Part shown: positions 18,243 to 37,039 of the stretch, in pieces
How positions within the stretch are numbered: position 1 is the first letter of the stretch
How the letters are laid out: each line of letters begins with the position of its first letter
Virus record (IMG/VR): IMGVR_UViG_3300012359_000030
Location: 1-53,473 of that record
Origin: a virus
Length of the DNA: 53,473 nucleotides
Strand: one strand, 5' to 3'
Notes under the pieces: generated by a model
Database searches by the model: none
Told to the model about the DNA's origin: nothing
Seen by the model: only the letters and a program-made list of their open reading frames with translations
Made by a program: the position numbers and the translations under genes

Positions 18243-18253
18243 TATATGCTATA
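18243..18253 (+). promoter_or_regulatory. TATATGCTATA motif, copy 4
   Basis: Exact 11-mer ending in the start codon of the HTH gene at 18253, at the head of the long plus-strand glycosylation operon. Confidence 0.5.
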
Positions 18254-18408
18254 TGACTATCCCGCAACGCAATTTACGAAATTCCAAGATTATCAAATAC
18301 CTTCAAGAAAACCATACTCGCGAGCAAGCCGCCAAAGAGTTCGGTCTTTCACTCAGTCAAATATTCCATATTCTAAGAAAATATAGAAAACAATATGCAA
18401 CTAACTGA
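18253..18408 (+). CDS. Small HTH protein heading the operon (51 aa)
   Basis: 51 residues, very basic: HTREQAAKEFGLSLSQIFHI is a helix-turn-helix and LRKYRKQYATN the tail. It overlaps the next gene by 14 bp. First gene of the 15-kb plus-strand operon; its start codon touches motif copy 4, so self-regulation is plausible. Confidence 0.6.
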   Translation: MTIPQRNLRNSKIIKYLQENHTREQAAKEFGLSLSQIFHILRKYRKQYATN

Positions 18409-18745
18409 TTTTGAACAATTCCTAAATGATTACAAATGGAATCTTGATTCCCCTGAATGGCTATCGCGCGGGATAGTTCAATTATCCGAGATCCTCTATG
18501 ATCTTACGAAAAAACTCCACCAGGCAGAATTCGATGAGAATAGGCTTACTATTCAATATTTAGACAATATTCAAGGCGGCAAGAAAATGGCAGTATCCGA
18601 AGCCGAGAAAAGAGCGTTAGTCGATACAAACAATGCCAAACATTTCCTTGAGAATAGTATCGAGACAATTAAAGAAACGATCAATGCGATCAAAAAAAGA
18701 CTTGATGTCCTGGCGTTTGAGTATCGCAATCAGAGCAGACTATGA
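18395..18745 (+). CDS. Helical hypothetical protein (116 aa)
   Basis: Almost entirely alpha-helical with two coiled-coil-prone stretches (25-50 and 75-110, e.g. FLENSIETIKETINAIKKRL). Coupled to both neighbours. Resembles small phage head or assembly helpers but not assigned. Confidence 0.55.
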   Translation: MQLTDFEQFLNDYKWNLDSPEWLSRGIVQLSEILYDLTKKLHQAEFDENRLTIQYLDNIQGGKKMAVSEAEKRALVDTNNAKHFLENSIETIKETINAIKKRLDVLAFEYRNQSRL

Positions 18746-18975
18746 TGGATGACCCGAATGAAATAGTAACAATGTTGAATATCAGAGGCCGGGTTGTCCG
18801 GGTTCGTCGATGGGAAGTATCTTTGTGCAAGGAACAAGGCATGAAAATAATCGTCAATCCGAAGCGGGAATATTATTACGAATATGATCAGGAGAATCAG
18901 CGGTCAATTCCTGTCACCGATAATATCGCTGAAAATATAGAAGAAGGCTCATTATTAGAAGTAGAAATCTTATGA
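18742..18975 (+). CDS. Small hypothetical protein (77 aa)
   Basis: 77 residues: basic strand-rich start (RGRVVRVRRWE), a WEVSLCKEQG helix, then an acidic half. This pattern (residue sequence VxVRxW near an acidic C-term) is seen beside phage glycosyltransferases, but function is unknown. Confidence 0.5.
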   Translation: MMDDPNEIVTMLNIRGRVVRVRRWEVSLCKEQGMKIIVNPKREYYYEYDQENQRSIPVTDNIAENIEEGSLLEVEIL

Positions 18976-20090
18976 TAGGCGTTAAATACACAGGCACAGC
19001 TTTCGATCATTCAGGCTATGGAGCTGCTAATCGAAATTTTATTTGTTCTTTGACATTCGCGGGTTTAGATATGACTACGGAGATTGTCGCCCAGACTCCC
19101 GAGAAATCAGGATATGGCTGGTCGGAGACTTTGATAGAAGATCTCACAGGCCGGCAAATTGATTACAGGATAAAAATCATCCATCTCACTCCTGATCTCT
19201 ATCCGGCATATAGGGAGCCAGGCAAATATCATATCGGTCATCTCTTTTGGGAGACAGATAGATTGCCGAAACAATGGATAGCTCCCTGTAACCAAATGAA
19301 TGAGATTTGGACTGCTTCAGAGCAACAAGCCGATATGATTAAAAAATCAGGTGTTACCATTCCTATCCATTGGTTTCCCCAGCCTATTGATACGATGAAA
19401 TCCGGGAAGATCATAGCCCCATTTGTTATCCCGAATTTTGACGGATTTCTCTTCTATAGTGTCTTTCAGTGGATTGAGCGCAAGAACCCGAAGGCTCTTC
19501 TTCAGACATATTGGAAGACCTTCTCTGGCAAGCAGGATGTCGCTCTGCTGCTCAAGACCTACCGGGTAACATATGGAGATAATGAATTTCAGAAAATCAA
19601 AGAAGATATTAGAGCATGGCAGGCGGAATTAAATCTTCCTCATTATCCGAAAGTCTTTTTAGTCAAGAAACTTATGGATATGGATTCTGTCTTTCGTATT
19701 CATCTCACAGGTGATTGTTTCATCAATACTTCGCGCGGTGAGGGATGGAATATCCCATCAACAGAGGCAATGTTAATGGGAAAACCGATCATATCTATCA
19801 ACAAGACAGGCATAGCAGATTATTTACCCAAAGATGACTATTATCCTTGTGATACCAAGGAATCTCAAGTTACAGAAGTTTCTTATATTCCCTGGTATAC
19901 CAGAGATCAGAAATGGCTTGACATCAACGAACGCGAATTAAGCGATCACATGCTTTCAATCTATAACGACAGATTGCTTGCGAAGAACAAAGGCTTACAA
20001 GCACAGAAATTTGTGAAAGAAAATTTTAATTATCACATTGTAGGAATGAGCATGAAAAAGAGGTTGGGAGAGATAGATAAATTTTTATAA
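18972..20090 (+). CDS. GT-B glycosyltransferase (GT4-like)
   Basis: 372 residues. The N-terminal half has a GYGAANRNF-type glycine loop (about 16-24) and the C-terminal half the retaining-GT signature NTSRGEGWNIPSTEAMLMGK (about 255-275), the E-x7-E-like donor site. It transfers a sugar from a nucleotide sugar. First of about eight transferases in this operon. Target unknown (host surface glycan, phage structural protein or DNA). Confidence 0.82.
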   Translation: MIGVKYTGTAFDHSGYGAANRNFICSLTFAGLDMTTEIVAQTPEKSGYGWSETLIEDLTGRQIDYRIKIIHLTPDLYPAYREPGKYHIGHLFWETDRLPKQWIAPCNQMNEIWTASEQQADMIKKSGVTIPIHWFPQPIDTMKSGKIIAPFVIPNFDGFLFYSVFQWIERKNPKALLQTYWKTFSGKQDVALLLKTYRVTYGDNEFQKIKEDIRAWQAELNLPHYPKVFLVKKLMDMDSVFRIHLTGDCFINTSRGEGWNIPSTEAMLMGKPIISINKTGIADYLPKDDYYPCDTKESQVTEVSYIPWYTRDQKWLDINERELSDHMLSIYNDRLLAKNKGLQAQKFVKENFNYHIVGMSMKKRLGEIDKFL

Positions 20091-20092
20091 AT

Positions 20093-20743
20093 ATGACAAA
20101 GAGTAAGAATACTACAAGCATTATTCGAATTAAGCCTTTAAGAGCAGTATATTATGAGGTCACTATTATGGGGATAACACCATTATATCTAGGACCAATG
20201 ACTGAATATGCTGTTGATCAAGTTCAAGGCACACGTGAGGGAGCAATAGGACCAAAGCAAAAACCTCTGACGATGGAACAGCAATTAGCAGTGGGGAAAT
20301 ATATTGGATATGACGATCAGGGCAATGAGTTCGATGGATATCCTACAAAAAACATTAAATCATGTATTAGGGATGCCGCAATTGGTAAAGAATGGTGGGA
20401 TAAAAAAATAGATAAGAAGCGATTTAATGCGGCATTTGAGATATTGGGAGATATCTTGCACATGGACGGCGAATGTGTGCCATCAAAAGATTGGGTAATG
20501 ATGGGCGCAGGACGAAGTAGTAAACCATTTCCGGCATGGACATATAGATGGAAATATAAAAAAGACTGGAAGACTACTTTTATTATTAGGATACTCCCGA
20601 CATTAATAACAGAGGATAGTATATTCACTATTATGAATACAGCAGGTGAATATATTGGAACAGGAGCTTGGAGAGCCGATAAACATGGTCGATTCAAAAT
20701 TATTAATACAAAAAAGATATCGAAACCTGAGTTTGATCTATGA
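20093..20743 (+). CDS. Phage hypothetical protein (216 aa)
   Basis: Contains VYYEVTIMGITPLYLG near the start and a later GYPTKNIKSCIRDAA block; this combination occurs in phage proteins of unknown role, as far as I recall. No catalytic motif seen. Coupled to the next gene by ATGA. Confidence 0.6.
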   Translation: MTKSKNTTSIIRIKPLRAVYYEVTIMGITPLYLGPMTEYAVDQVQGTREGAIGPKQKPLTMEQQLAVGKYIGYDDQGNEFDGYPTKNIKSCIRDAAIGKEWWDKKIDKKRFNAAFEILGDILHMDGECVPSKDWVMMGAGRSSKPFPAWTYRWKYKKDWKTTFIIRILPTLITEDSIFTIMNTAGEYIGTGAWRADKHGRFKIINTKKISKPEFDL

Positions 20744-21240
20744 AGAAAATAGCAAAACATATATATCATGCCAAGAACAGGCTCTCCGGTAAAGACGCAC
20801 AGATAATCGGAGAATATTTAGCAACGGAAAAAATAACTAAAGCTCGCGAGCTATATGAACGAGCCAAAGCAGAAGATCATTTTCTTCATAATAAATATTT
20901 TGTTTGGGATAAAGATAAAGCAACAGAACTTTATAATATTCATATAGCCAGAAATATAATTAATGATATCGGAGTAGAAATTGTTTATGAAGATGGTGAG
21001 ACAATTATGCTTCCTGAAGCATATCCCAATGTTAAAGAAAAAGATGTTGAAGTAGGCAATTATTTACCTGTAATGGAAGTCATGAACAATGAGAAACATC
21101 GGGATTATGTTATTAAAGTTGCATTTAATGAAATGAAGATAGCATCAGAAAAATATAATTCTTATATAGAATTTAGCAAGATTCAGTTAGCCATCAAAGA
21201 CGTAGAGGAAGATCTAAAAAATAGATCTATTCTTCAATAA
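20740..21240 (+). CDS. Phage hypothetical protein (166 aa)
   Basis: 166 residues: N-terminal helices, a central beta-rich part (GVEIVYEDGETIMLPEA), a C-terminal helical tail. Paired with the 216-aa gene and possibly working with it. No family named. Confidence 0.55.
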   Translation: MKKIAKHIYHAKNRLSGKDAQIIGEYLATEKITKARELYERAKAEDHFLHNKYFVWDKDKATELYNIHIARNIINDIGVEIVYEDGETIMLPEAYPNVKEKDVEVGNYLPVMEVMNNEKHRDYVIKVAFNEMKIASEKYNSYIEFSKIQLAIKDVEEDLKNRSILQ

Positions 21241-21263
21241 ATACCCATTTGATGTGAATACTC

Positions 21264-21343
21264 AGCGCAGCAAAGCAAAGCTTAGCCAAGCGGAGCAGAG
21301 CGAAGCTTAGCAGAGCACAACTTAGCAGAGCGCAGCGAAGCAT
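21264..21343. repeat. 16 x 5-bp AGCNN repeat
   Basis: Exactly 16 consecutive pentamers, 15 starting AGC and one AAC, with variable last two bases. It lies between two genes. Frame readings give only Ala/Ser/Lys-like low-complexity shadows. A longer repeat AGCTTAGCAGAGC is visible inside it. Confidence 0.75.
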
Positions 21344-21389
21344 GACACTGACTGGGATGCGCATAGGATAAACGCATAAATATAAAAAT

Positions 21390-21587
21390 ATGGGAAAAAC
21401 ACAGGAAGATACAATGGACAAATTACTCGTACACTTTGCACAGAGCAAAGCATATATGGATGAGCATGGTAAAGATAGTTTGGCCTGGAGATTAAAATCG
21501 GGAAAATTAACTGAAGAAGACAATATGTGTTTGAAATGGGCGCTTGAGGTTTTACAAAAGTTGCCACTTTTTATAGGAGAATCATGA
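21390..21587 (+). CDS. Small hypothetical protein (65 aa)
   Basis: 65 residues, helical, charged. Starts ~45 nt after the AGCNN repeat and is coupled to the next gene (ATGA). An internal Met at residue 9 could be the true start. Confidence 0.5.
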   Translation: MGKTQEDTMDKLLVHFAQSKAYMDEHGKDSLAWRLKSGKLTEEDNMCLKWALEVLQKLPLFIGES

Positions 21588-21748
21588 AAAACAAAAAATA
21601 CAAATATATCAACATAACATTAGCATTATTAAGCTATTTTGTTCCCGGTTTTTTCTTTATCGGTATTAATAGTTTTGGTGCATTATTATGGTTCCTTTTT
21701 GGATGGATAGTTCCATTATTTGTTCTATTCTATTTGGATTATGAGTAA
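21584..21748 (+). CDS. 54-aa two-span membrane protein
   Basis: GGAGA ribosome site upstream. Lys-rich N-terminus, then two hydrophobic segments (about 10-30 and 32-50). Positive-inside layout. Lies among the glycosylation genes, perhaps a membrane anchor or flippase helper. Confidence 0.55.
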   Translation: MKNKKYKYINITLALLSYFVPGFFFIGINSFGALLWFLFGWIVPLFVLFYLDYE

Positions 21749-22199
21749 AAAAAAGCAAACTGAAATACAATTAGTCGATCCCAAAGCCATTGTCGCGACG
21801 ATGGAGGAGAAGATGCCCGAATGGGTAAAGGAGTTGCATTCGAAAGAAGACATGGGGAATGCTATCTATGCGACAGGCACAGAACTCCTCGTCGCCATAG
21901 ATGATATTCTCCTTCGTTATTTCAGCTTTGATGAGGAGTCCATCAAAGAATTTCATGTTCATCTCAAAGATATCCTTCAGGGAGTGAAAGAGTTTGAGGA
22001 ACATGGACTTTCGATTATGACTCCGCATTCTATGGATGTTCTCGGAGAGAAGATTGGAGAAGTCGGTATCGGAGGTTTACTAGCAGAGATCGCGAATACG
22101 AGATTATTGAAAGAAAGAATGGGTCGTGCCGGACTGGAATACCCTGTTTCCCTCGCAGCAACACCATTTATCAGGAAATTGAAGCAAAAGAACAAATGA
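21741..22199 (+). CDS. Helical hypothetical protein (152 aa)
   Basis: Start at 21741 (overlapping the membrane protein) rather than 21720. Acidic/basic helical protein (for example MPEWVKELHSKEDMGNAIYA) with no motif. Ends overlapping the next start. Confidence 0.55.
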   Translation: MSKKKQTEIQLVDPKAIVATMEEKMPEWVKELHSKEDMGNAIYATGTELLVAIDDILLRYFSFDEESIKEFHVHLKDILQGVKEFEEHGLSIMTPHSMDVLGEKIGEVGIGGLLAEIANTRLLKERMGRAGLEYPVSLAATPFIRKLKQKNK

Positions 22200-22435
22200 C
22201 CGAAAGCAGGCTAAAGACATGGACTCAAGAACAATGGAACTTAGCAGCGTGGGCTATCTGGAGATCTATAACAAAAAAATATGGAAATGACAGCTATCCG
22301 AAAGAAAAAGTTCTTGAATGGTATCTTGATTATTATAAATGGCTAAAAGAATTTGATTCATATGGGGGATCATTATCAGATTTACGTAATGTCGCACGGA
22401 GAAAGATTAAGGAATTCGAAGAAAAGAATATATGA
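22196..22435 (+). CDS. Small hypothetical protein (79 aa)
   Basis: Trp-rich helical protein (WTQEQWNLAAWAIWRSI). Coupled on both sides. No function recognised. Confidence 0.5.
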   Translation: MTESRLKTWTQEQWNLAAWAIWRSITKKYGNDSYPKEKVLEWYLDYYKWLKEFDSYGGSLSDLRNVARRKIKEFEEKNI

Positions 22436-22668
22436 AATTCAGAGAAGCAATTATCGTCGATAAGGGATGGAATGAACTTTACCTTGACCCGGATTTCACG
22501 CGGACTTTTCCTTCAGACCCGGAAGCATGGGTCAAATTTTACAAGCAAGGAGAATATCATGGTAAACCCGTCTTCCTATTGCCTCAAGATATGAGCAAAC
22601 ACAAAGAAGCAGCAACCAACTGGCAAAAAGGTGCGACCGAATATATAGAGAAACAAAAAAACAAATGA
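22432..22668 (+). CDS. Small hypothetical protein (78 aa)
   Basis: 78 residues, mixed strands/helices, Pro and aromatic rich (ELYLDPDFTRTFPSDPEAWV). Coupled on both sides. Confidence 0.5.
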   Translation: MKFREAIIVDKGWNELYLDPDFTRTFPSDPEAWVKFYKQGEYHGKPVFLLPQDMSKHKEAATNWQKGATEYIEKQKNK

Positions 22669-22808
22669 AAAGATTTTGGATTACTTTTGAACTTATCACA
22701 ATGCTCGGCAGATATTACGCCCTATGGATTCATAATTGGGAACTTATCCTAGTTTGCTTTATCCCGATGATACTCAATGTAGTATACGATTTGAATATAT
22801 ATAAATGA
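22665..22808 (+). CDS. 47-aa membrane protein
   Basis: ATGA-coupled to both neighbours. Hydrophobic stretch about 24-40 (LILVCFIPMILNVV). Sits directly before a glycosyltransferase gene. Confidence 0.5.
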   Translation: MKRFWITFELITMLGRYYALWIHNWELILVCFIPMILNVVYDLNIYK

Positions 22809-23866
22809 ATATTTTATATTACTCAACCCATGAAATTCTCGAATACGACGAAGTAAAACTCTTCACTGAGATGGGACACAATGTCTTCAGTCTCGGAGCC
22901 TATCAGATATCGAAATCAGGTACAGGTATGCGTGGTGAAATTCCAAATCTCTATCAGAATTCTCATATAACCGGAGTAAGTCTCCAATGCTCCAAGGAGA
23001 ATACTCATGAAGAGCTTATCGGCTGGGCTGATGTAATTATCCTCATGCACAACGCCCGTGTCAGTGTCATGGATCACCCGCAACCATGGCTCAAAGGTAA
23101 TTGGGAGAAATTCAAAGCCAGCAAAAAGCCTATTATCTGGCGTTCTATCGGACAAAGTAACAAACAAATAGAAACATCTCTCAAAGAATTCCGCAAAGAT
23201 GGCTTAAAAATAATCCGATATTCTCCCAGAGAAGAAACTATTCCCGATTATCAAGGATCAGATGCCATGATCCGGTTCTATAAAGATCCTGAAGAATACA
23301 AAGATTACAATGGTCAGGGCAGAAGAGTTGTAAATATCTCTCAGGCTTTATTCGGAAATGAAACCGTCCGTTCCCGAGGAGATCATATGAATAAAGACCT
23401 GTTCGACAAAGTAGTTGAAGGTTTTGACTGGAAAGTCTTCGGACCTGACAATGAAAACGCCGGAGAACACAATGGCGGTCTTCTCTCTTTCGAAGACCTG
23501 AAGCAAATGATGCGATTCAACCGTGCCTATTTCTATACCGGCACACGCCCCGCCGGATATACATTAGGTTTCATCGAGGCTATGATGACTGGAATTCCCA
23601 TTGTTTCTATCGTCCCCGATCATGGGAATGTAATCTATGATGACCAAAAAACTTTTGAAGCTCATGAATTACTTGGCTCGGAAGATGGTTCCGAGGGAGG
23701 TTTCTGGTCAGACAATATTCAAGAACTCCGTGATTATCTTAACATTCTTCTGAAAGACCCAAATCTTGCCATATCAGTCGGACAACGAGGCAGGGCGAGA
23801 GCGATTAATCTCTTCGGGAAAGAAAAAATCAGAAAAGAATGGGATATATTTTTTAATTCATTATGA
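22805..23866 (+). CDS. GT-B glycosyltransferase (GT1/GT4-like)
   Basis: 353 residues; GT-B layout with N-terminal MNILYYSTHEILEYDEVKLF and C-terminal RPAGYTLGFIEAMMTGIPIV, the donor-binding region of retaining transferases. It probably transfers an activated sugar. Coupled to the 47-aa membrane protein upstream and the 55-aa one downstream. Confidence 0.78.
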   Translation: MNILYYSTHEILEYDEVKLFTEMGHNVFSLGAYQISKSGTGMRGEIPNLYQNSHITGVSLQCSKENTHEELIGWADVIILMHNARVSVMDHPQPWLKGNWEKFKASKKPIIWRSIGQSNKQIETSLKEFRKDGLKIIRYSPREETIPDYQGSDAMIRFYKDPEEYKDYNGQGRRVVNISQALFGNETVRSRGDHMNKDLFDKVVEGFDWKVFGPDNENAGEHNGGLLSFEDLKQMMRFNRAYFYTGTRPAGYTLGFIEAMMTGIPIVSIVPDHGNVIYDDQKTFEAHELLGSEDGSEGGFWSDNIQELRDYLNILLKDPNLAISVGQRGRARAINLFGKEKIRKEWDIFFNSL

Positions 23867-24030
23867 CGTTATTACAAGTGTTTACGGCAATCTGGTTTGG
23901 ATTTAACATTGCGATCATGCTATTTTCTCTCGGTCAGAGATATCCGGGATATATATTTGATCTGAATTCTCTTACTTTAGGCATTATGATTCTCACAATA
24001 ACCTGGCTACTAGGTTTTGCATCACGATGA
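23863..24030 (+). CDS. 55-aa two-span membrane protein
   Basis: ATGA-coupled to both neighbours. Hydrophobic segments at about 3-22 and 36-54. The repeated layout (transferase followed by tiny membrane protein) suggests a role at the membrane. Confidence 0.5.
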   Translation: MTLLQVFTAIWFGFNIAIMLFSLGQRYPGYIFDLNSLTLGIMILTITWLLGFASR

Positions 24031-24680
24031 AAACAATCACCGAACAATTATTCGAGTTAGGCAAAGGAATTATCGAACAACATATTGAAGTATCCGATCA
24101 TACGGGTAAGTTTTCCATGGCTGATGATGGCGGTGTTGAGACTGAAACAGGTGAACTATTATATGCTCTTACCCGGATCATCAAGCCGGAGCTTGTATTG
24201 GAGACAGGCACATATACAGGAATCTCTGCTATGTATATGGCTGCCGGATTACAACATAATAACATAGGACATTTGTTCACGCTCGAAACTTCCGCTATTC
24301 ACAAAGAACGAGCTGAAAGATTATGGCAGCAAGTTGGTATTTCTCCGCAAGTTACCTGTCAACAGATAGCAAGTCTTGACTATCAGACTGACAAACAGTA
24401 TGACCTTATTTTCTTAGATTCCGAACCTGAATTCAGATTCAAGGAATTAGTGAAGTTCTACCCGAATCTCAAGCCCGGTGGCTTTCTTCTTATTCACGAT
24501 CTCCATCATCATTTATCTCAGCATGACAATAAAGACTTAGGATTTGGCTGGCCGTTCGGAGAATTGCCTATGCAGATTAAAAACTGGCTTCGGGAAGACA
24601 AATTACGTTTTGTACCCTTCCCAACTCCGCGCGGACTTGCTATGTTTTATAAAACAAAACCCGAAGATTATACACCATGA
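24027..24680 (+). CDS. Class I SAM methyltransferase (O-MT-like)
   Basis: 217 residues; SAM-binding loop LETGTYTGISAMYMA (59-72), the acidic strand end LFTLETS, YDLIFLDSEPE and a HDLHHH metal/acid site, as in class I O-methyltransferases. Adds a methyl group to an unknown acceptor, likely a sugar in this context. Confidence 0.75.
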   Translation: MKTITEQLFELGKGIIEQHIEVSDHTGKFSMADDGGVETETGELLYALTRIIKPELVLETGTYTGISAMYMAAGLQHNNIGHLFTLETSAIHKERAERLWQQVGISPQVTCQQIASLDYQTDKQYDLIFLDSEPEFRFKELVKFYPNLKPGGFLLIHDLHHHLSQHDNKDLGFGWPFGELPMQIKNWLREDKLRFVPFPTPRGLAMFYKTKPEDYTP

Positions 24681-25195
24681 GAAATTTCGACATAATAACA
24701 GCACAAAGCAGAGCCAGTATCGAGAAAGAGGACTTAAAGGTGCTTCTTCCGCTTATTGCGGCGATAAAACCCGAAAAGATTATCGAAATAGGAATGCATC
24801 AGGGATATTCTATGGAAATTTGGAGAAAAGCATTTAACCCGAAACTTCTTTTAGGAATAGAAATTAATTCCCCTACCCCATCATCTTATATCAATGAAGA
24901 ATTTATGTTTTGGGATATAAATTCTCATACATTCGCAAATGAAATAACTGGAAAGAATTTATATGACTTTCTATTTATTGATGGCGACCATTCTTATGCA
25001 GGAGTGAAGGATGATTTTGAAAAATATTCCCATTTTGTACGAACAGGCGGGATTATCGCTCTCCATGATGTGTGCTATCATGCTGAAAAAACTGAAGAAG
25101 TGGATATTCTCTGGCAGGAGATCAAGAAATTATATCCCTATATCGAAATAAAAGTCGGGAAGAATTCAACAGGAATAGGAGTAATATTTGTATGA
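24677..25195 (+). CDS. Class I SAM methyltransferase (CmcI/MT24-like)
   Basis: 172 residues: SAM loop IIEIGMHQGYSMEIW (37-48), then FLFIDGDHSYAGVKDDF and IALHDVCYH, the acidic and His residues of the Methyltransf_24/CmcI group. Paired with the methyltransferase upstream. Confidence 0.75.
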   Translation: MRNFDIITAQSRASIEKEDLKVLLPLIAAIKPEKIIEIGMHQGYSMEIWRKAFNPKLLLGIEINSPTPSSYINEEFMFWDINSHTFANEITGKNLYDFLFIDGDHSYAGVKDDFEKYSHFVRTGGIIALHDVCYHAEKTEEVDILWQEIKKLYPYIEIKVGKNSTGIGVIFV

Positions 25196-26280
25196 AAATT
25201 TTAATTACCGGAGCAGTTGGTCATATCGGAACTAATATAACTATCGAAGCTATCAAGCGGGGACATAGCATTGTTGCTATGGACAATCTTCACCGGGAAG
25301 AAGTCATCAATAATTTGAAATATCTTCAAAAAGAATATTTCTCAGATCAATTCAAGTTCATCTGGGGGGATGTTAGAAATATAGACGATTTCGATAGAAT
25401 ACCCGATGTTGACGGGGTTATTCATCTTGCAGCAAATCCGGGAGTCCCGTGGTCTATCGAATGGCCTACCTATGATTTCGATACCAATGCCCGCGGCACT
25501 CTCAACGCGTTAGAATTCGCCCGGAAGATGGGTAATATTCCCTTCGTCTATGCAAGTACGAATAAAACCTTCTCCGATATTATCAATATCCTTCCGATGA
25601 TCGAGACAGATACCAGATATAAATGGAAGCCAGCCTGGGGATTGGGACTTGAAGATATCATTGCAGGAATTGATTATCGTACCGAAGATGTCATTCCTAC
25701 TGCTATAAATGAGAAATTCCCGATAACAGGATTCGGCAAATATGGTCATTCGATGTACGGGATTTCCAAATTAACAGGTGATTTATATTGTCAGGAATAC
25801 CACGTCCAATATGGCTTACCCATTGTTATCAATAAAATGAGTTGTATCTATGGTCTTTTTCAGAAAGGATGTCCCGATCAGGGATGGGTATCCTCGTTCC
25901 TGTTAGATGTCGGATTCAGGGATAAGCCTATTACATTCTACGGCAATGGCAAACAAGTACGGGATATTCTCGACGCGAGAGATGTTGCCCGATTATATAT
26001 TGACGAACTGGAAGGAATAGATAAATGCAACGGTGAGATCTTCACTGTCGGAGGTGGACCGGAGAATACGAAGTCACTTATCGAAACAATTCAGGAAATC
26101 GAAACGCAAACCGGGAAGAAAGCCGATATCCGTTATGGTCCGAAGAGAGATGCAGATCAGGACATTTATATCAGTTCCCTTAAACGAGTGACGAGAATCA
26201 TGGGTTGGACTCCTACTATTCCTTTTGAAACTACGATTAAGGATATGATCGAAGAATATTCTCATGCACAAACCATCTAG
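25192..26280 (+). CDS. NAD-dependent epimerase/dehydratase
   Basis: 362 residues of an extended SDR. NAD loop GAVGHIG (G7, G10, G13), Ser/Thr at 122-123, catalytic Tyr-x3-Lys at Y189/K193 (MYGISK). Resembles UDP-glucose 4-epimerase and GDP-mannose dehydratase families. It would make or modify a nucleotide sugar for the neighbouring transferases. Confidence 0.87.
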   Translation: MKILITGAVGHIGTNITIEAIKRGHSIVAMDNLHREEVINNLKYLQKEYFSDQFKFIWGDVRNIDDFDRIPDVDGVIHLAANPGVPWSIEWPTYDFDTNARGTLNALEFARKMGNIPFVYASTNKTFSDIINILPMIETDTRYKWKPAWGLGLEDIIAGIDYRTEDVIPTAINEKFPITGFGKYGHSMYGISKLTGDLYCQEYHVQYGLPIVINKMSCIYGLFQKGCPDQGWVSSFLLDVGFRDKPITFYGNGKQVRDILDARDVARLYIDELEGIDKCNGEIFTVGGGPENTKSLIETIQEIETQTGKKADIRYGPKRDADQDIYISSLKRVTRIMGWTPTIPFETTIKDMIEEYSHAQTI

Positions 26281-27151
26281 AGCCATATGTGTTGCGTTCC
26301 ATAAATATACTCCCTTCGGAGGAGAGTTTTATGAACCCTTACTCGACTTCTTTCTCCAGAATATGAGGAAATACAAAGACGAATATGACAAGCTCTATTT
26401 AATAGATAGCACCTGGAATATTGATCCCGACAAACTGGAAGGCTTAAATGTAGAGATTATCAAAGTGAATCCTCATCTACGCTATTATGATGCTTATAAG
26501 AATGTATTACCCCAAATCAAGGAATTATTGGTACTTTTCGTAGACAACGATATGGTCATATATAGAGAAGGTTTAATTAATTCTACGTTCGAGAAATTTA
26601 ATCAAGGCTATGATATTGTCTCGATCTACGACACCATCGGAGAAAAAACATTTCCACAACTCAATAATCAGTCTAAATTCTGCCCATATTGGTTTGCTAC
26701 AGGCACGACTATATTAAAAGATTTCACTTCATGTGAATGGGGTCCGAATATGCCCCATTATGAAACTTTAGGAGAGCTTACGGAAAAAATGCTGGAAGAT
26801 GAGATGAAGCCTTTTGAATTCGAGGAAGATAAAAGTAATTGTCTCTTTGATCGAACACAGGATGGAGAGAAATCAAAAGATCTAGGTTATTATCATGTAC
26901 GTGCGGGCAGTACAGCTGCCTATCTCTTAGCAACACAAAAATATGGCAATATTGATACATACAATGAATATATTAAGAACCAGCCGCGCAATGAATATCT
27001 CAGGCATTTCGCCTGGTATAGAATCATGTGTGAATATACTAATGCTCCGGGTATAAGCATGAACGAATCAAAATTCTTGAGAGTTCTCGGTATCAATATG
27101 CAGGATTGGGATGATTATATAAAAAGATTCAAATATTATCATGGCCTATGA
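26264..27151 (+). CDS. GT-A-type glycosyltransferase-like protein
   Basis: 295 residues; FVDNDMVIY supplies a DxD metal/nucleotide-sugar motif (D94-D96) after an N-terminal Rossmann-like half, typical of GT-A transferases. Start overlaps the epimerase end by 17 bp. Acceptor unknown. Confidence 0.6.
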   Translation: MHKPSRAICVAFHKYTPFGGEFYEPLLDFFLQNMRKYKDEYDKLYLIDSTWNIDPDKLEGLNVEIIKVNPHLRYYDAYKNVLPQIKELLVLFVDNDMVIYREGLINSTFEKFNQGYDIVSIYDTIGEKTFPQLNNQSKFCPYWFATGTTILKDFTSCEWGPNMPHYETLGELTEKMLEDEMKPFEFEEDKSNCLFDRTQDGEKSKDLGYYHVRAGSTAAYLLATQKYGNIDTYNEYIKNQPRNEYLRHFAWYRIMCEYTNAPGISMNESKFLRVLGINMQDWDDYIKRFKYYHGL

Positions 27152-27345
27152 AGAAAACCATTGCAGAACTCATCGATGAATTAAGTATTGTAAATATCAA
27201 GATCTTTATGCTTATCGAAAAAGTACAGAATCATACCGCAACTCTTGAAGAGGCAGGAAAAGTCCAGAAGCTCAATCTCCAGAGAAGTAAATTAATGAAC
27301 GCTATATCAGATGAATTTAATCAGGAAGGGAGAGTAAAAATATGA
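27148..27345 (+). CDS. Small coiled-coil protein (65 aa)
   Basis: Fully helical (LSIVNIKIFMLIEKVQN and so on). Coupled on both sides to transferase genes. Could be a small partner or a chaperone. Confidence 0.5.
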   Translation: MKKTIAELIDELSIVNIKIFMLIEKVQNHTATLEEAGKVQKLNLQRSKLMNAISDEFNQEGRVKI

Positions 27346-28325
27346 CCCGGGCAGCATTTTTATCATCAGGCGGAGATCCATTTATCAGTTTACTCGTTTT
27401 GAAGCTCTTTCAAGAGAGGTGGTATAACGAAGTGGATAAGCTCTATATTGATTACAATAATCATTCCGGCGTTCCCTTAGAAGTCGCTCAGGAATTTGTC
27501 AAACGTGCTATGGAAGAGCCGAAAGTCCATCTCATTTATCATAACCGCGGGATCGGAAATGGTATGCCTATCACTGAAATGACGAAGATTTCTCAGGAAG
27601 ATTTAGTAATGTTATTAGAAGATGATGGATTTATCTTCGAGCCGGGGATTGTTGATTCCTGTTTCCAGAAGATCGAATCAGACATGACAGATATCGTCGG
27701 TTCGCCCAGAGGTAGCTGCGGACCCGAAATATGGGAAAGAAGCAGGGGAAAATATGCACTCGACTATTCAGGCTATGGAGATGTTGGCCCTAACTGGTGG
27801 CCTAATTTCTTCTTTTGTAAGCGCAAAGATTTATTACGAACCGATTTCAATTTTGCCAGTATTACTTTCCATGCCGATGAATATTGCAAAGAATTAGACT
27901 ATACCTTCAAGGATATTAATCACGGAGATACATTCGTCTGGGCGTGTATGCAGCTCAGAGCTTTGGGTCTACGATCACAATCTATTCCTCAACACCATGC
28001 TTCACCATATGAAATAGATGATTATAATAATCACACAATGAACTGGATTGGCGATAAACCGAAATGGATTCATGGCGGCTCACTTTCTACCGGATGGGGA
28101 GGCTATCTATCTAATATAGTCCCCGATGTGAGCAATGAAAGTGCATTACTGGAAACAGAGACACGAGCCGCTTTCTGGACTATCGCTTCATCTATAATAG
28201 AAGGCTTCACCGATTTCAAATATCAATACCAGAAAGGCATCGAAAGCCTCATCGCCAATGCAGGCTTAGATAGGGATCGCATTGGCAAAAAAGTCGGGAT
28301 ATATAGAGCATTAATGAGAATATGA
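27342..28325 (+). CDS. GT-A-type glycosyltransferase, paralog 1
   Basis: 327 residues with MTRAAFLSSGGDPFISLLVL, shared with the paralog at 28623 (MTRAVLLPSTGDPFLL). The EDD triplet in MLLEDDGFIFE (93-95) is the likely DxD metal site. Middle contains a conserved GSPRGSCGPEI block, also in the paralog (GSARGSCAKEI). Confidence 0.65.
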   Translation: MTRAAFLSSGGDPFISLLVLKLFQERWYNEVDKLYIDYNNHSGVPLEVAQEFVKRAMEEPKVHLIYHNRGIGNGMPITEMTKISQEDLVMLLEDDGFIFEPGIVDSCFQKIESDMTDIVGSPRGSCGPEIWERSRGKYALDYSGYGDVGPNWWPNFFFCKRKDLLRTDFNFASITFHADEYCKELDYTFKDINHGDTFVWACMQLRALGLRSQSIPQHHASPYEIDDYNNHTMNWIGDKPKWIHGGSLSTGWGGYLSNIVPDVSNESALLETETRAAFWTIASSIIEGFTDFKYQYQKGIESLIANAGLDRDRIGKKVGIYRALMRI

Positions 28326-28618
28326 AACCTAGCTTAACAGAAATAATTATTTTTCATTTTACCCAAACACCAGCAAATTGGCTTATTATATCGGATTTGA
28401 TAAATGATCTCCCGTCAGGCAGCTATAAGCAAAACATATATGAGAAATATAAAGCTAAAAAAATTACCAAACTAAAAAAATATTTTCTAGAGATTATTAA
28501 GTTATATGATAAACATGAACAAAAAGATTTTATTGAAGAATTTCTGATTATTGCAATGAATAATTATATTAATTGGGAGAAAGTATTTTTATCTATCATA
28601 GCGAAAAAAAAGAATTAA
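28322..28618 (+). CDS. Hypothetical helical protein (98 aa)
   Basis: 98 residues, AT-rich codons, Lys-rich, helical. Lies between two paralogous transferases. No motif. Confidence 0.5.
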   Translation: MKPSLTEIIIFHFTQTPANWLIISDLINDLPSGSYKQNIYEKYKAKKITKLKKYFLEIIKLYDKHEQKDFIEEFLIIAMNNYINWEKVFLSIIAKKKN

Positions 28619-28622
28619 ATAT

Positions 28623-29633
28623 ATGACACGAGCAGTATTATTACCATCGACAGGAGATCCATTTCTTTTACGCGCGTGGCTGAAATGCTTTGAGAGATGG
28701 GAGGATGAAGTTGATAAGCTATATATTTGTATCAACAATCGCGAAATGCAATCTAACGAATTAGGCTATATTCTTGATTTAGTTACCTTCAATCCAAAAA
28801 TTCACCATCAGGAATATTTCCTTACTCTCGATCACGGTCCGGCGATCAATAAAATGCTCGATGTATGCCAGGAAGGTGCTATCATGCTAGCTGAAGATGA
28901 TGCCCTTATTTTCAAAAAAGGACAGGTAGAATCCTGCTTTAAAAGAATTCAAGACAACGAAGTTGATGTCATAGGTTCTGCGCGGGGCAGTTGTGCCAAA
29001 GAAATCTATGAACGTGCTGAAGAAGTATGGGGTACGCCTCCTCAAGCTCCTAACTTCTGGCCGAACTTCTTCTTCATCCTAAAAAAGAATCTTCTCCAAA
29101 CAGACCGTCACTTTCACGCGAAGCAATGGGTTCGCGGGGATTACATTAAAGAACTCGATCTCGAAATCACCGATGAGATATCCCCTGCCGATACGTTCGT
29201 ATGGGCTTCTATTCAACTGCGGGGTATGAATCTCCGGGCAGAACTCGTCGATCAATACCATTCCCGTCCCGAAGATATTCAGGATAAAGAACAGGTATTA
29301 GGTATCTTTGACAGGAAATGTCCCTGGGTACATATCGGTTCGATGTCAGGTTGGCAATTTACTCTCATGAGTGCTACACTACAACCGAGGCTTGGAAGTA
29401 TTAGTGAATGGGAGAGGCGAGCTGCCGCGTGGCTCATGGTATGGGAAGACGCACAGGAAGATTTGCCTGAATCTATGCAAAAGTTTTCAAATCTATATAA
29501 ATCTGGGATAGATCGGCTTATTACCGAATATACCCTCTCTCCTGCCAGAGTTAGATTACGAACTGATTTATTTAGATATCTTATTAACCCTGAGTTATAT
29601 ATGAAGAGACTTGAAGAGCGGAATACATTATGA
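28623..29633 (+). CDS. GT-A-type glycosyltransferase, paralog 2
   Basis: 336 residues; EDD at 91-93 (MLAEDDALIF) is the likely metal site. Clearly homologous to the 27342 protein (start, EDD region, GSARGSCAKEI, and WPNFFF). The pair arose by duplication with a small gene between them. Confidence 0.65.
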   Translation: MTRAVLLPSTGDPFLLRAWLKCFERWEDEVDKLYICINNREMQSNELGYILDLVTFNPKIHHQEYFLTLDHGPAINKMLDVCQEGAIMLAEDDALIFKKGQVESCFKRIQDNEVDVIGSARGSCAKEIYERAEEVWGTPPQAPNFWPNFFFILKKNLLQTDRHFHAKQWVRGDYIKELDLEITDEISPADTFVWASIQLRGMNLRAELVDQYHSRPEDIQDKEQVLGIFDRKCPWVHIGSMSGWQFTLMSATLQPRLGSISEWERRAAAWLMVWEDAQEDLPESMQKFSNLYKSGIDRLITEYTLSPARVRLRTDLFRYLINPELYMKRLEERNTL

Positions 29634-30445
29634 AAAAAAGTTTAATAGTTTGCTGGATTTCAAATAATGACTATCCTCTCTTCAGAGAATGGTTAGAGAA
29701 ATATCACTCATTCTTTGATGAGATTATCATCCATTGGGATATCATGTTCCGTTTTCCTTTTTACAATGCTTTCATTCAATCTTCCCTCTCTCACATTCCA
29801 AACATCAAATTTTTAGATATGGTTCAGCGGGAACTCGGAGTAGATGATTGGAGACATGCGGCCACGACAGAGATGTTGAGACATGCTACGGGAGACTGGA
29901 TTATCTCTATTGAGCAAGATTGGTTTAGCAAAGATTGGGATAGACTTCTAAATGCCTCAGAGCAAGCTATGAAGAATTCAGATCTTTTTGGCTGGTACAA
30001 TCCTACCAACTTCCCCTATATCCATCCTGCCTATTTTTTTATCAAAAGAGAAATGCTTGAGAAGACCCGCAAAGACTTCTCTCCTCATGCGGAGATCAAT
30101 GGAGCAGATCACTTCGCCATGATTACCAGGGATGCTTTAGATAATGGAGCGAAACTAATTAAACTCCAAGACCTGGGATTCGTTACTGACAAACTTGATC
30201 CACGCGAGACAGATTGCTTTCATTTGGGCGGAGTAAATCAGAACTACCTCGATTTCGATGTGAGATTTCAAGCAAATGCGATTCATCGACCTGAAATATT
30301 CTCAGTCTATAATCATTTTTCCAGGAAAGCCAACGTAGATCAATCTCCTTATTTCATGTCTATTATGGATAAAGTATCACCCCGTCTAGTAGAAATGACA
30401 CAGATAGATCCTGAATTAAGCGACTGGAGGAAATTCTTTATATGA
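29630..30445 (+). CDS. Putative glycosyltransferase (EQD type), paralog 3
   Basis: 271 residues. SIEQDWFSKDW gives an acidic metal-site-like motif and WDIMFRFPFYNAF a Rossmann-like start. Related to the next gene (30442) by motif WxEQDxF and by HPAYFFIKR versus HPCCIFIRR. Confidence 0.55.
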   Translation: MKKSLIVCWISNNDYPLFREWLEKYHSFFDEIIIHWDIMFRFPFYNAFIQSSLSHIPNIKFLDMVQRELGVDDWRHAATTEMLRHATGDWIISIEQDWFSKDWDRLLNASEQAMKNSDLFGWYNPTNFPYIHPAYFFIKREMLEKTRKDFSPHAEINGADHFAMITRDALDNGAKLIKLQDLGFVTDKLDPRETDCFHLGGVNQNYLDFDVRFQANAIHRPEIFSVYNHFSRKANVDQSPYFMSIMDKVSPRLVEMTQIDPELSDWRKFFI

Positions 30446-31128
30446 ATATAGATGTCATTGTCTCATGGCCTATTCACCTGGATTTTCCTCTATGGAGGCA
30501 ATTTATTCATGAGAATAGATCCAGATTTAACAAAGTGATCGTCGTCTTTACCCAGATGAACACAGGCAGAGATTATCGTCCATTTCTTCGGGAGCAATTG
30601 AGTAAGGAAGGGGTTAGTATCATAGATAATGATGAGGTAGAGGGCGGTCAGGATTGGAGAAATGTCGCGGTACGCAAAGCTCTCGGAGTCTCAGATGCGG
30701 AATGGATATGGTTCACCGAACAGGACTTCTTTCCACAGAAGGATTTCTGGGATAAAGTTGCATATTATTCGTTTCATACTGATGCCTTTGGATATTACCA
30801 GGATACACGGCTTCATCCTTGTTGTATCTTCATAAGACGTAATCGACTTGATCAGACGACTAAGGACTTTTCAGCTAACCCGCCGGGATATGATCATTTT
30901 GGTAAATTGCAATTAGATCTTGAGAAAGGTTTACCAATTGGAAAAATAGATAAGGAATATGGTCATCATTATAACGGTCTTTCCCAGAATATCTGGCTTC
31001 TCATGAATGGACTCGAGCCGAATTATAATCCCCCGGAATTCAAAGAATATTGCAGGAAATGTCTCGCGCTTGATATTCCCATTGAGCCGAATATGAAAGC
31101 ATTATTTGAAAAATATGTTAGTATTTAG
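30442..31128 (+). CDS. Putative glycosyltransferase (EQD type), paralog 4
   Basis: 228 residues; shares the WFTEQDFFPQKDFWD and LHPCCIFIRR blocks with the preceding protein, so they form a duplicated pair. Acceptor unknown. Confidence 0.55.
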   Translation: MNIDVIVSWPIHLDFPLWRQFIHENRSRFNKVIVVFTQMNTGRDYRPFLREQLSKEGVSIIDNDEVEGGQDWRNVAVRKALGVSDAEWIWFTEQDFFPQKDFWDKVAYYSFHTDAFGYYQDTRLHPCCIFIRRNRLDQTTKDFSANPPGYDHFGKLQLDLEKGLPIGKIDKEYGHHYNGLSQNIWLLMNGLEPNYNPPEFKEYCRKCLALDIPIEPNMKALFEKYVSI

Positions 31129-32158
31129 CGACAGGCATCATGAATCACTCTATTCCTCTCTCGTCATGCTCTTCGAAGACAGACTCGGAGGAGAACTTTA
31201 TTATCCTTTAGGCATGGAGTGGTATGAACAGGGATATTGGAATGTCTATCCTCATCCCGCAACAGCGAAACAATATTTGTCTTTAGATCAGCTATATCAC
31301 CCTGAAGACGGCACACCTCCCCTCAATCAAATCATGGAGATACACGAAGGCATCTTCTCAGTCGAAAGTACAGATACCCATAAATACATCAAAGGAATCA
31401 GACTCGACAAATTCAAAGAAATGAGATTCGACATCCTGATCGCTACTCTCCCCCAACATATTGAACCATTCAAGAAATTAATCTCAACCTACCAACCCCA
31501 AGCGAAACTCATCTACCAGATCGGTAATCAATGGAATATCGACTTAACCGTAGTTAAGAATGTTATGGCATCAGCAAACATAGATATACCAAAAGATGTC
31601 AACGGTGTGATTTATCATCAGGAGTTCGATCTCAATATTTTCGATTATACTCCCGTTCCTATGGCGAAAAAAATATATAGCTTCATTAATTGCCTGAGTA
31701 TGGTTGATATTTATCGGAAAGATTGGGAGTTATTTTTAGAACTGGAACGCCTGTTGCCAGATTGGGAATTCAAAAGCTTCGGCGGTCAATGCAGGGACGG
31801 ATGGTGTAACGGAACGAAAGAACTTGCCGATAAGATGAAAGAAGCTGCCTTCATTTTTGCGTGTAAGAATGAAGGTGATGGTTATGGACATGTTATTCAT
31901 AACGCAGCAGCTATTGGAAGACCATTAATTGTCAGAAAGTCCGATTATGATGGCAAGCTCGCCGAACCATTACTCGAAATGTCCACAAGTATATATGTAG
32001 ACAATAAAACGCCGCAAGAGATAGCAAGCGAAATTCAAGAAACTCATGATAATGGCTTTGATTATCTGAAAGGGAAACGTATCTATACCAAGTTCAAAGA
32101 GCAAGTCAATTTCGATCACGAAATTCATAAAATCCGTAACTTTTTAGATTTCTTATGA
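31115..32158 (+). CDS. GT-B-like glycosyltransferase
   Basis: 347 residues from the ATG at 31115; a TTG start at 31106 is less likely. N-terminus MLVFSDRHHESLYSSLVMLF, and C-terminal FACKNEGDGYGHVIHNAAAIGRPLIV, the donor-binding glycine/His region of GT-B enzymes. The start overlaps the end of the 30442 gene. Last transferase of the operon. Confidence 0.6.
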   Translation: MLVFSDRHHESLYSSLVMLFEDRLGGELYYPLGMEWYEQGYWNVYPHPATAKQYLSLDQLYHPEDGTPPLNQIMEIHEGIFSVESTDTHKYIKGIRLDKFKEMRFDILIATLPQHIEPFKKLISTYQPQAKLIYQIGNQWNIDLTVVKNVMASANIDIPKDVNGVIYHQEFDLNIFDYTPVPMAKKIYSFINCLSMVDIYRKDWELFLELERLLPDWEFKSFGGQCRDGWCNGTKELADKMKEAAFIFACKNEGDGYGHVIHNAAAIGRPLIVRKSDYDGKLAEPLLEMSTSIYVDNKTPQEIASEIQETHDNGFDYLKGKRIYTKFKEQVNFDHEIHKIRNFLDFL

Positions 32159-32385
32159 AACTTATCTTACATGCGATTAGAATTAATCCAAACGTTATCG
32201 AGGAAATTCAGATAGAAGATGTATCCCATTTTTCTGTTGATGATTCGAATATCGTGGTTCAGTTCAACGACGGCAAGCATGAACTCATTCCACTTCGTGC
32301 CAATGACGGACAACAGATTCATGAATGGTCAGGATTCTCGATCTTCGTGACGAGAGTTGGATTGAAAGTAGATATGAATAAATAA
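32155..32385 (+). CDS. Small hypothetical protein (76 aa)
   Basis: Strand-rich 76-residue protein (VVQFNDGKHELIPLRAND, WSGFSIFVTRVGL). Coupled to the transferase upstream. No family. Confidence 0.5.
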   Translation: MKLILHAIRINPNVIEEIQIEDVSHFSVDDSNIVVQFNDGKHELIPLRANDGQQIHEWSGFSIFVTRVGLKVDMNK

Positions 32386-32386
32386 T

Positions 32387-32791
32387 ATGAGTAAAATGAT
32401 TTGTATCCCATGTAATATGGAATTCCCTTCCGATGCTATTTATATAAGGCATAAGAATTCCGGTCATGTTGCTTTTCGCGAGAAAGGAATTGTTCTTGAT
32501 TCGCCACCCGAACCGCTTCTTCCTCCCGGCTTTCCCGAACCTACTTCCGAATTCGTCGAGATGGTCAATAGAATTGAGAACAAAACAGAAGAACCAAAAC
32601 CTTCGCAGCATCCATCCGAATTACCTCCGGCATCTCCGATTACTCTCGAATATATCTGGCGCGGCGAATGTCCTTCTGATAGAGCTTCAGTTACGACACT
32701 TGAACTCGATGTAGCGAACAAACATTTCTGTATTGCCATTTGTTCGATCTGTAGAAAGCAATTAGCGACTATGGAGGTGGCAAAACTATGA
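32387..32791 (+). CDS. Zinc-finger protein (134 aa)
   Basis: N-terminal C2H2-type finger (CIPCNMEFPSDAIYIRHKNSGH) and a C-terminal part with CSICRK that could bind zinc. A Pro-rich linker lies between. Likely nucleic-acid binding. Confidence 0.6.
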   Translation: MSKMICIPCNMEFPSDAIYIRHKNSGHVAFREKGIVLDSPPEPLLPPGFPEPTSEFVEMVNRIENKTEEPKPSQHPSELPPASPITLEYIWRGECPSDRASVTTLELDVANKHFCIAICSICRKQLATMEVAKL

Positions 32792-32925
32792 ATAACGAAC
32801 GTACCTATGTTCAACTTGTACATAAAAATATTGAAACCCTTCTCAAAATAATTGAAACAAAAGATGATATTATTCGTATGTTAATGACAGAATTATTGCC
32901 TGGCAAGGAGGTGGCAAGAGAATAA
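32788..32925 (+). CDS. Small helical protein (45 aa)
   Basis: ATGA-coupled to the zinc-finger gene and TAATG-coupled to the next. Helical (VQLVHKNIETLLKIIETKDD). No motif. Confidence 0.5.
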   Translation: MNNERTYVQLVHKNIETLLKIIETKDDIIRMLMTELLPGKEVARE

Positions 32926-33149
32926 TGGGACAAGTAGTATATCGACAAAAAAATACCTATACCAAACGCTGTGATAAATGCGGCAGGTTATCTCACTATA
33001 TTTACCGTATTCAATTAGGTCAATTCTGGTATAACTTCTGCTCGGGCATGTGTACAGACGCAGCCCAGAAAGAATATCAATCCAAGGAAAAGAACGGCAT
33101 TTCACCAAGCAGTTTGGAACCGATTGAAGAAGGAGGTGATATTGCATGA
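32925..33149 (+). CDS. Small zinc-binding protein (74 aa)
   Basis: CDKCGRLSHYIYRIQLG, then CSGMCTDA, a Cys4 zinc site. GGAGGTGG ribosome site upstream. Coupled to the next gene. Confidence 0.6.
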   Translation: MGQVVYRQKNTYTKRCDKCGRLSHYIYRIQLGQFWYNFCSGMCTDAAQKEYQSKEKNGISPSSLEPIEEGGDIA

Positions 33150-33457
33150 CCGAAGAACAAAGAAAGATAGACATGGAGGTGTTTGAAGCCGAAGCGAAAA
33201 AAACAGCTCTTCAGTTACCGAATCACAAACTAAAAGAGTTTACCCTGAATACCATAGAACAGCAAATGCTTGCCGAACAGGAGACTATTGTCGCACTGGC
33301 TAGAGCTTCACAGGATAAAATTATCAATGAATATGTTCTCAGTAGAGTTGGAGTTACCCCAAGTCCTGCGATTCATATAAGGTATTCAATTAGTCTGGGA
33401 AGATTCGTAGTATATACACCCAAATTACCCAAGGGATCGTCTAAAGAAAAGTCGTAG
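33146..33457 (+). CDS. Hypothetical protein (103 aa)
   Basis: 103 residues, helical N-terminus, more strand-like C-terminus with basic tail. GGAGGTGA ribosome site. Last gene of the plus-strand operon; no clear terminator follows before the convergent gene at 33552. Confidence 0.5.
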   Translation: MTEEQRKIDMEVFEAEAKKTALQLPNHKLKEFTLNTIEQQMLAEQETIVALARASQDKIINEYVLSRVGVTPSPAIHIRYSISLGRFVVYTPKLPKGSSKEKS

Positions 33458-34904: not shown

Positions 34905-34906
34905 AG

Positions 34907-36157: not shown

Positions 36158-36972
36158 TAAGCGTCTCCTCCTTCCATGAGATCATTCATCTCAAGCACAC
36201 GTATATCGGCACTTCCCCCTGCGGTAACTGCGTAGACGATATTTCTCGGACCCGCATCCAATGATGGACCATATGTTCCCGCAGGGACGGGTATGCCTGT
36301 AGCCGAAGTCACATTCGCTCCGCCTACATAAATAGTCGTTGAGGCTGAGTTATTATAAATGGTGAGACTTCTCCTGTCTGCCAATGCTGTTCCAGGCAAT
36401 GGAGTTAACGCGGAAGTTACGGTTACAGCAGTCGCCATAACAGTTCCCCGGTTAGGATTCAGAGAAACATTCGTCACTGGTTGAGGAATCATCCAGTTTT
36501 GGATCTCGACAGGTATGGTCTTATCAGGAAAGCCAACATTTGCCGCCTCTTTGTTGATCAAGATATTAAATCCTTTCTTCAGTTCCTCAATTCCTTCGAG
36601 AAGGTCATCGAAGCTCTTCACCCGGATTTCATTATTAATTGATAAATCATTGGGAATTTTGATATTAACTGCCTGCATAGCCTTGACAGTAGTCCGTTGG
36701 AGTTCATTGATTTGATTCGCGAGTGCTATAAAAGCGTTATTGAGTTCTGAGAGGTTTTTGATCTGAACAGGTGGCAATGAGTCAATTTTGTCAATAGACA
36801 CTTTCCCGAATACTTGAAACATATGAGGAATGTCAACTCTGAATTTCCCGGTAGTTGTCAGGATTTCAGTGAGTTTTCCGTTAATCTTATCAAGCAACGT
36901 AAGGGTACGGGGATCAGCAATCTCTTTGAATTGCAAATCTAGGTCGTTTAATTCCAAATCGTCGGGTTTCAT
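36157..36972 (-). CDS. Structural protein, cassette copy 2 A gene (271 aa)
   Basis: N-terminal helical part (1-160), then a C-terminal ~110-residue beta domain beginning PVTNVSLNPNRGTV and ending VLEMNDLMEGGDA. This C-terminal domain is nearly identical to that of the 39470 gene, so it is a repeated domain. An extended -10 promoter and hairpin leader precede it. Confidence 0.6.
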   Translation of the reverse strand: MKPDDLELNDLDLQFKEIADPRTLTLLDKINGKLTEILTTTGKFRVDIPHMFQVFGKVSIDKIDSLPPVQIKNLSELNNAFIALANQINELQRTTVKAMQAVNIKIPNDLSINNEIRVKSFDDLLEGIEELKKGFNILINKEAANVGFPDKTIPVEIQNWMIPQPVTNVSLNPNRGTVMATAVTVTSALTPLPGTALADRRSLTIYNNSASTTIYVGGANVTSATGIPVPAGTYGPSLDAGPRNIVYAVTAGGSADIRVLEMNDLMEGGDA

Positions 36973-36973
36973 A

Positions 36974-37020
36974 GTAGATATACTCTACCAGGTTGTTCCT
37001 TTGGAGCTATCTTAATTATA
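36974..37020 (-). promoter_or_regulatory. Late promoter and conserved hairpin leader, copy 2
   Basis: TGATATAAT extended -10 (-10 at 37015-37020), then GAACAACCTGG, then a 5-bp hairpin (36974-36988) one base before the ATG. Same layout as 41162-41212. Confidence 0.6.
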
Positions 37021-37039
37021 TCACATTGAGGCTATTTTC

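Follow-up and report, generated by a model that had tools for sequence, protein, structure and literature searches.

To our knowledge, the glycosylation of phage virions is so far known from a few cultured actinobacterial phages, and that of mycobacteriophage virions was reportedly described by Freeman in 2023. In this study, we have analysed a virus record from IMG/VR (IMGVR_UViG_3300012359_000030; its full length of 53,473 bases is called the window here), in which the run of genes at positions 18253-33457 forms an operon for glycosylation in the genome of a tailed phage. Its enzymes are eight glycosyltransferase (GT)-like proteins, which we assign to families A to F, two methyltransferases (the first of them called m) and an epimerase (e). 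This cassette is not confined to the phage of the window; it is common to many uncultured viruses. With moderate confidence, we favour the reading that it serves the cytosolic glycosylation of the phage's own virion proteins.

Among the described systems, phage-encoded GTs are presented in the cited passages as glycosylating the capsid and the tail tube of the mycobacteriophages Che8, Corndog and Myrna (PMC11256854, PMC12363180, PMC12619734). Che8 has several phage-encoded GTs in a row (gp108-110), as the cassette does, and soluble phage-encoded GTs, as found in virion-protein glycosylation systems, are present here on the evidence of folds, profiles and the lack of membrane segments. However, gp108-110 lie near the right genome end and not beside the gene of the major capsid protein (MCP), their stretch is without tailoring enzymes, and their comparison with the cassette families gave no profile match below E 0.38 and no hhalign probability above 14%. 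The Che8 GTs are not homologous to the cassette families; in its manner of working, the cassette would resemble virion glycosylation. The lipopolysaccharide-type clusters of cyanophages such as P-SSM2 are also large sets of paralogous GTs and sugar-modifying enzymes in a phage; the portions of the source cited describe them as sporadic, polymorphic between relatives and accompanied by sugar-supply enzymes (PMC7824862). In contrast, the cassette described here has a conserved core order across phage groups and almost no sugar supply: the kinases and nucleotidyltransferases of a full sugar-nucleotide supply are missing from the window's cassette, which has the epimerase alone. Chloroviruses encode their own capsid glycosylation, with a shared core and a variable decoration, according to the cited sections of a review in which the acceptor of B736L itself is unsettled (PMC9614988). 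With their own cytosolic GT set they are the nearest analogue in logic, and B736L is the closest solved structure to A, but they are viruses of eukaryotes and the homology is limited to the common GT4 fold. In Streptomyces phages of the Beuffert type, the tandem pair gp17/gp18 matches family A (profile E 1e-19 to 8e-23) and resembles the A-A of our siphovirus group (see below); there, however, no B-F cassette is annotated, and a ribonucleotide reductase and an endolysin follow the pair. Finally, two loci of Omnitrophota bacteria (G049:C17 and L039) have families B, m, F and D in common with the phages, and differ in lying on a bacterial chromosome, in having no strong A in those stretches and in their identities of 29-51%. 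A search of open-licence papers found no literature on this exact cassette (subscription papers were mostly outside the search).

Composition of the operon

A preliminary description of the window, made from its letters alone, had proposed about eight GT-like genes including two pairs of paralogs, two methyltransferases, an epimerase and several tiny membrane proteins, coupled in one plus-strand operon headed by a small helix-turn-helix (HTH) protein. Our analysis bears this inventory out. The run consists of 30 consecutive plus-strand open reading frames (ORFs), with exact 4-nt overlaps at 20 of the 29 junctions and a sole gap longer than 4 nt (149 nt, 21241-21389). Promoter- and terminator-like sites were no more frequent in a scan of the window than in shuffled sequences, so expression as a single transcript is argued from the gene coupling alone. 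The enzymes of the run are as follows.

18972..20090, plus strand: GT A, GT4-type GT-B enzyme; PF13692 above cutoff, PHROG 2170; closest solved structure chlorovirus NY-2A B736L (3oy2, E 3.3e-11)
22805..23866, plus strand: GT B, GT-B enzyme; family profile matches TarM/PglH-type chains (E 3.8e-7 for GT-B chains such as TarM)
24027..24680, plus strand: methyltransferase m (Methyltransf_24, CmcI-like); PF13578 2.2e-12, PF04989 barely above cutoff
24677..25195, plus strand: second methyltransferase; PF13578 4.9e-11
25192..26280, plus strand: nucleotide-sugar epimerase e, CDP-tyvelose-2-epimerase-like; PF01370 2.8e-38; best solved chains 9rl0 (E 5.5e-56) and 1orr (E 1.7e-49)
26264..27151, plus strand: putative GT C, GT-A-like; weak PF13712, DND motif, profile link of about E 1.3e-15 in G009
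27342..28325, plus strand: GT D1, GT-A by AlphaFold2 model; 54-68% identical in relatives
28623..29633, plus strand: GT D2, paralog of D1 (39% identical); 37% identical to an Omnitrophota chromosomal protein
29630..30445, plus strand: GT E1, GT-A by AlphaFold2 model and structure matches
30442..31128, plus strand: GT E2, paralog of E1 (32% identical), in the same family alignment
31106..32158, plus strand: GT F, GT-B-like; PF13692 E 0.032, profile to 4xso E 0.0033

Pfam confirms both methyltransferases as well as the epimerase, and the position of m is conserved across the related loci. Among the eight GTs, Pfam alone places only A above its cutoff, the others being sub-threshold or without a match, and profiles and structure models were therefore used. 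Together these give three GT-B-like (A, B, F) and five GT-A-like (C, D1, D2, E1, E2) enzymes. The AlphaFold model of the D family has a GT-A fold (predicted local distance difference test, pLDDT, 80.6), with 478 Foldseek matches in the PDB at E<=1e-3, the matches listed being GT-A enzymes at modest template-modelling scores of 0.3-0.45, and the model of the E family (pLDDT 92.2) has GT-A structure matches as well. In these models, D and E, which are without significant Pfam support, fall in the GT-A fold class. Family C, for which sequence searches gave no convincing match, appears GT-like solely through a three-way alignment with the D family and through its DND motif, and the profile values of F point weakly to a GT-B-like enzyme.

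Distribution and gene order

Seven related IMG/VR loci were initially found through D and further ones through A. Profile scans of IMG/VR then showed relatives of F at 118 stretches, the best 80 of which were kept (79 loci), and relatives of B at 144, of which 80 were kept. The 87 loci examined comprise 78 from the F scan and 9 earlier ones; some come from the same contigs, and many are cut by contig ends. F, the best marker of the cassette, was seen in 83 loci, followed by A and B (63 each), D (49), E (46), m (42), e (18) and C (15). Where four or more of the six core families are present (45 loci), 42 loci keep the order A-B-m-D-E-F, and 753 of 762 gene pairs agree with it; the exceptions are L130, L139 and L008. 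For this count, 8 loci from already represented contigs were set aside, one of them being readmitted. Whole records showed the same gene order in a podovirus lineage with a common portal and internal virion proteins, in which G003, G004 and G005, near copies of each other, are treated as a single case. No protein shared there is better conserved than D (54-68% identity, versus 38-68% for the portal and 31-46% for the internal virion protein). Against 50,697 named phages, neither B, D, E and F nor the window's portal gave a tblastn match and the operon gave no megablast match, while A and e match distant proteins only.

The cassettes of relatives also contain accessory genes, among them a methyltransferase fused to a sugar N-formyltransferase-like domain (L021, 4811-6187), a Thg1-like protein (L014, 11839-12528) and a DNA methylase (L045, 15120-16043). 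A C5 cytosine methylase lies near the cassette of a replication-module phage (L125, 12328-13698).

Genomic placement and the possible acceptor

Most loci fall into one of three settings, which we call the siphovirus, podovirus and replication groups; 10 were placed in none. In the siphovirus group (33 loci), one strand carries, in this order, the portal, minor head protein, scaffold, MCP, cassette, head-tail adaptor, major tail protein and tape measure (the profile seeds for these virion genes and for the terminase were PHROG-named proteins of a contig from an Omnitrophota bin). On the same strand, the first gene upstream of the cassette is the MCP in 19 of these loci, and in 5 more the MCP comes second or third, which accounts for all 24 loci that have an upstream flank. 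As the group was itself labelled by virion-gene profiles, this adjacency speaks of position and not of frequency. In six lineages of the podovirus group, to which the window belongs, the cassette is upstream of, and codirectional with, the terminase and/or the portal (G003=G004=G005, G010, G017, G018, L081 and L099). Because the cassette follows the MCP in siphoviruses and precedes the terminase and portal in several podoviruses, we favour decoration of the virion. We also count in its favour the conserved core order, the lack of larger multi-segment membrane proteins inside the cassettes (see below), the chlorovirus GT as closest solved structure to A and the conservation of D above that of the portal and internal virion protein.

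Under this reading, the soluble GTs A to F would work in the infected cell's cytoplasm and add sugars stepwise, with nucleotide sugars as donors, A priming the acceptor and B to F extending the chain, and the methyltransferases and the epimerase would tailor some of the sugars. The most probable acceptor would be one or several of the phage's own virion proteins, either the capsid or Ser/Thr-rich proteins of the head, neck or tail fibre. The particle would thus leave the cell coated with sugars that mask it or, possibly, resemble a glycan of the host surface. In the siphovirus loci where both F and the adaptor are visible, genes of at least 300 amino acids (aa) stand between them in 16 of 24, with a median Ser plus Thr (S+T) content of 23% versus 13% for the other non-cassette ORFs there. 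They include three families of collagen-like, Ser/Thr-rich fibre genes with 49 to 83 GXY triplets. We regard these large genes, and more speculatively a protein of the window, as candidate acceptors.

L073, 11143-13356: collagen-like fibre gene
L083, 11300-13081: collagen-like fibre gene
L095, 1247-3148: collagen-like fibre gene
Window, 33552..34904, minus strand: Ser/Thr-rich protein convergent with the cassette, S+T 25.6% versus a window median of 12.1%; no PHROG or significant Pfam family

Several observations weigh against virion glycosylation. In the replication group (26 loci), the cassette lies between the DNA polymerase, seen in 17 of the 18 loci that extend upstream of it, and a UvsX-like recombinase (26 of 26), and adjoins helicase, primase and single-stranded DNA-binding protein genes; this setting is the strongest evidence against taking the neighbourhood as proof of virion modification. 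In the window, G002 and G007, moreover, most virion genes are on the other strand from the cassette, and the window's own copy is not part of a late operon. No large gene separates F from the adaptor in 8 of the 24 siphovirus loci, and a high Ser/Thr content is common to phage fibres in general. The tail of the MCP was considered as an acceptor and rejected, the MCPs being without a Ser/Thr-rich or variable tail. Lastly, relatives of B, m, D and F occur in chromosomal loci of Omnitrophota beside Mrp-like genes, which fits work on a surface glycan.

In a tree of F built by a quick method, the replication group is one clade (support 100) and the setting labels are clustered, with 11 changes versus a shuffled mean of 36.8, several branches being long. 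The window's F adjoins the siphovirus clade, without strong support. The podoviruses do not form one clade, which makes transfers likely, and the imperfect clustering by setting indicates that the cassette usually remains in a given phage lineage, with occasional moves.

Relatives in Omnitrophota

The chromosomal locus G049:C17 reads m-B-m-B-F-F-F, L039 carries a relative of D, and both are near the same Mrp-like and neighbouring genes. In scans aimed at a host link through a prophage, the D profile matched in 6 of 285 genomes, two of the matches being strong (the genome of L039, and the siphovirus contig G208:C13, which is binned with an Omnitrophota genome, possibly in error), and a search of genome contigs with it gave 1 locus. 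The F profile matched in 29 of 384 genomes, again with two strong matches (G208:C13 and G049:C17), and that of A in 7 of 384 at E<=1e-20; the portal profile, run without a positive control and hence uninformative, matched in 0 of 270 genomes. These relatives are a lead: although the identities are 29-51% and a bin may hold a stray contig, they suggest that the phages infect Omnitrophota and that the glycan is akin to that of the host.

Tentatively, and with more doubt than belief, the favoured reading could be widened to a glycan-coat system widespread in uncultured tailed phages, probably those of Omnitrophota, in which the phage-type A primes a virion acceptor, for instance the Ser/Thr-rich or collagen-like fibre encoded alongside, and the host-like B to F build a host-mimicking chain, the order A-B-m-D-E-F mirroring that in which the sugars are added, and which has passed among podoviruses, siphoviruses and a third phage type. 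A multi-enzyme cassette with its order preserved across three kinds of uncultured phages would mean that sugar-coated particles are common in the environment, and families F, D and B would be genetic markers for finding them. Should the glycan copy that of the host, it would amount to molecular mimicry on the side of the phage and offer a clue for linking phages to uncultured Omnitrophota.

Alternative functions

Three targets had been named at the outset, and the comparative context speaks for the virion over the host surface, as in lysogenic conversion, and over DNA. That the cassette alters a surface glycan of the host, blocking superinfection or stopping progeny from sticking to debris, is a serious contender which we nevertheless find rather unlikely. 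The families shared with the chromosomes of Omnitrophota, the integrase of the phage and the CDP-tyvelose-type epimerase and CmcI-like methyltransferases, which are typical of surface sugars, argue for it, and cyanophage clusters of such a kind are read that way in the source passages (PMC7824862). On the other hand, the placement in the virion run of siphoviruses implies late expression, useless in a lysogen, and hydropathy found no protein of at least 150 aa with at least two strong membrane segments among 677 cassette-interior genes. Going by hydropathy, neither there nor in the window's cassette is there a Gtr-type serotype conversion set (flippase GtrA, bactoprenol GT GtrB and a membrane GT), a polymerase or an initiating membrane transferase. 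This makes lysogenic conversion of the Gtr kind less credible and argues against a self-contained pathway of lipid carrier, flippase and polymerase, but not against that of the host, whose own carrier system could be borrowed.

It is improbable, in our view, that the cassette glycosylates phage DNA on hydroxymethylated bases as a defence against restriction. Its place between DNA polymerase and recombinase in the replication group, with a deoxynucleotidase-like gene nearby, would suit this function, as would the C5-methylase often near the cassette in that group (6 of the 9 records searched); one type of DNA hypermodification combines a C5 cytosine methylase with a TET-like dioxygenase, and multi-GT DNA hypermodification has reportedly been described by Pyle in 2024. 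However, the ThyA-type hydroxymethylase of T4-type DNA glucosylation was found in neither of two sets of 11 and 24 records (35 partial records; controls matched in 9 of 14, and ThyX was not searched for), no C5-methylase was found in the 10 records of the window's group or in 15 others outside the replication group, and eight GTs with sugar methylation make a long pathway for a base modification. The Tet_JBP (TET) profile matched in no record, the controls included, and so carries no information either way. A small-molecule glycoside, or a takeover function through modification of host protein or RNA, strikes us as quite improbable: soluble GTs and methyltransferases also build natural products, but no aglycone-making gene is seen in the cassette, and its conservation beside virion genes would be left unexplained.

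Other features of the window and its relatives

Besides the enzymes, the run contains several small proteins.

18253..18408, plus strand: small HTH protein that opens the run; PF13518, 25.9 bits versus a cutoff of 25
21584..21748, plus strand: tiny membrane-type protein, by hydropathy
22665..22808, plus strand: tiny membrane-type protein, by hydropathy
23863..24030, plus strand: tiny membrane-type protein, by hydropathy
27148..27345, plus strand: DUF4254-like protein of 65 aa, upstream of D; PF14063 sub-threshold, E 4.5e-4
32387..32791, plus strand: zinc-finger-like small protein after the cassette; sub-threshold zf-C2H2

Among the proteins of related loci and records, the HTH protein and the three membrane-type ORFs have no relatives, the latter being unconserved. 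The DUF4254-like protein is kept directly before D in the podovirus group, and the zinc-finger-like protein is conserved 3' of the cassette in the same group (relatives in 16 loci or records, duplicates counted).

Elsewhere, the window has tailed-phage genes: its portal is P22-like and truncated, its integrase is of the tyrosine type, and a CHAP endolysin, an SLT lysozyme and virion proteins are encoded as well. The portal fragment (1-1474) is on the plus strand and the virion genes of the far end (33552-53331) are on the minus strand; in relatives they share a strand, and the mismatch would stem from inversion or from a join made during assembly, close to the left end. The portal of L009 (3896-5839) has about 330 additional in-frame residues at position 169/170, intein-like, beside which L014 4573-7179 is listed, and the terminase of G003 has a LAGLIDADG domain. 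A TnpB/Cas12f-like ORF stands amid the virion genes of the window (41238-42734, plus strand; PF07282 just below cutoff, PHROG transposase, no TnpA seen), and at 2100-3487 on the minus strand a HAD phosphatase lies beside a phosphoribosyltransferase.

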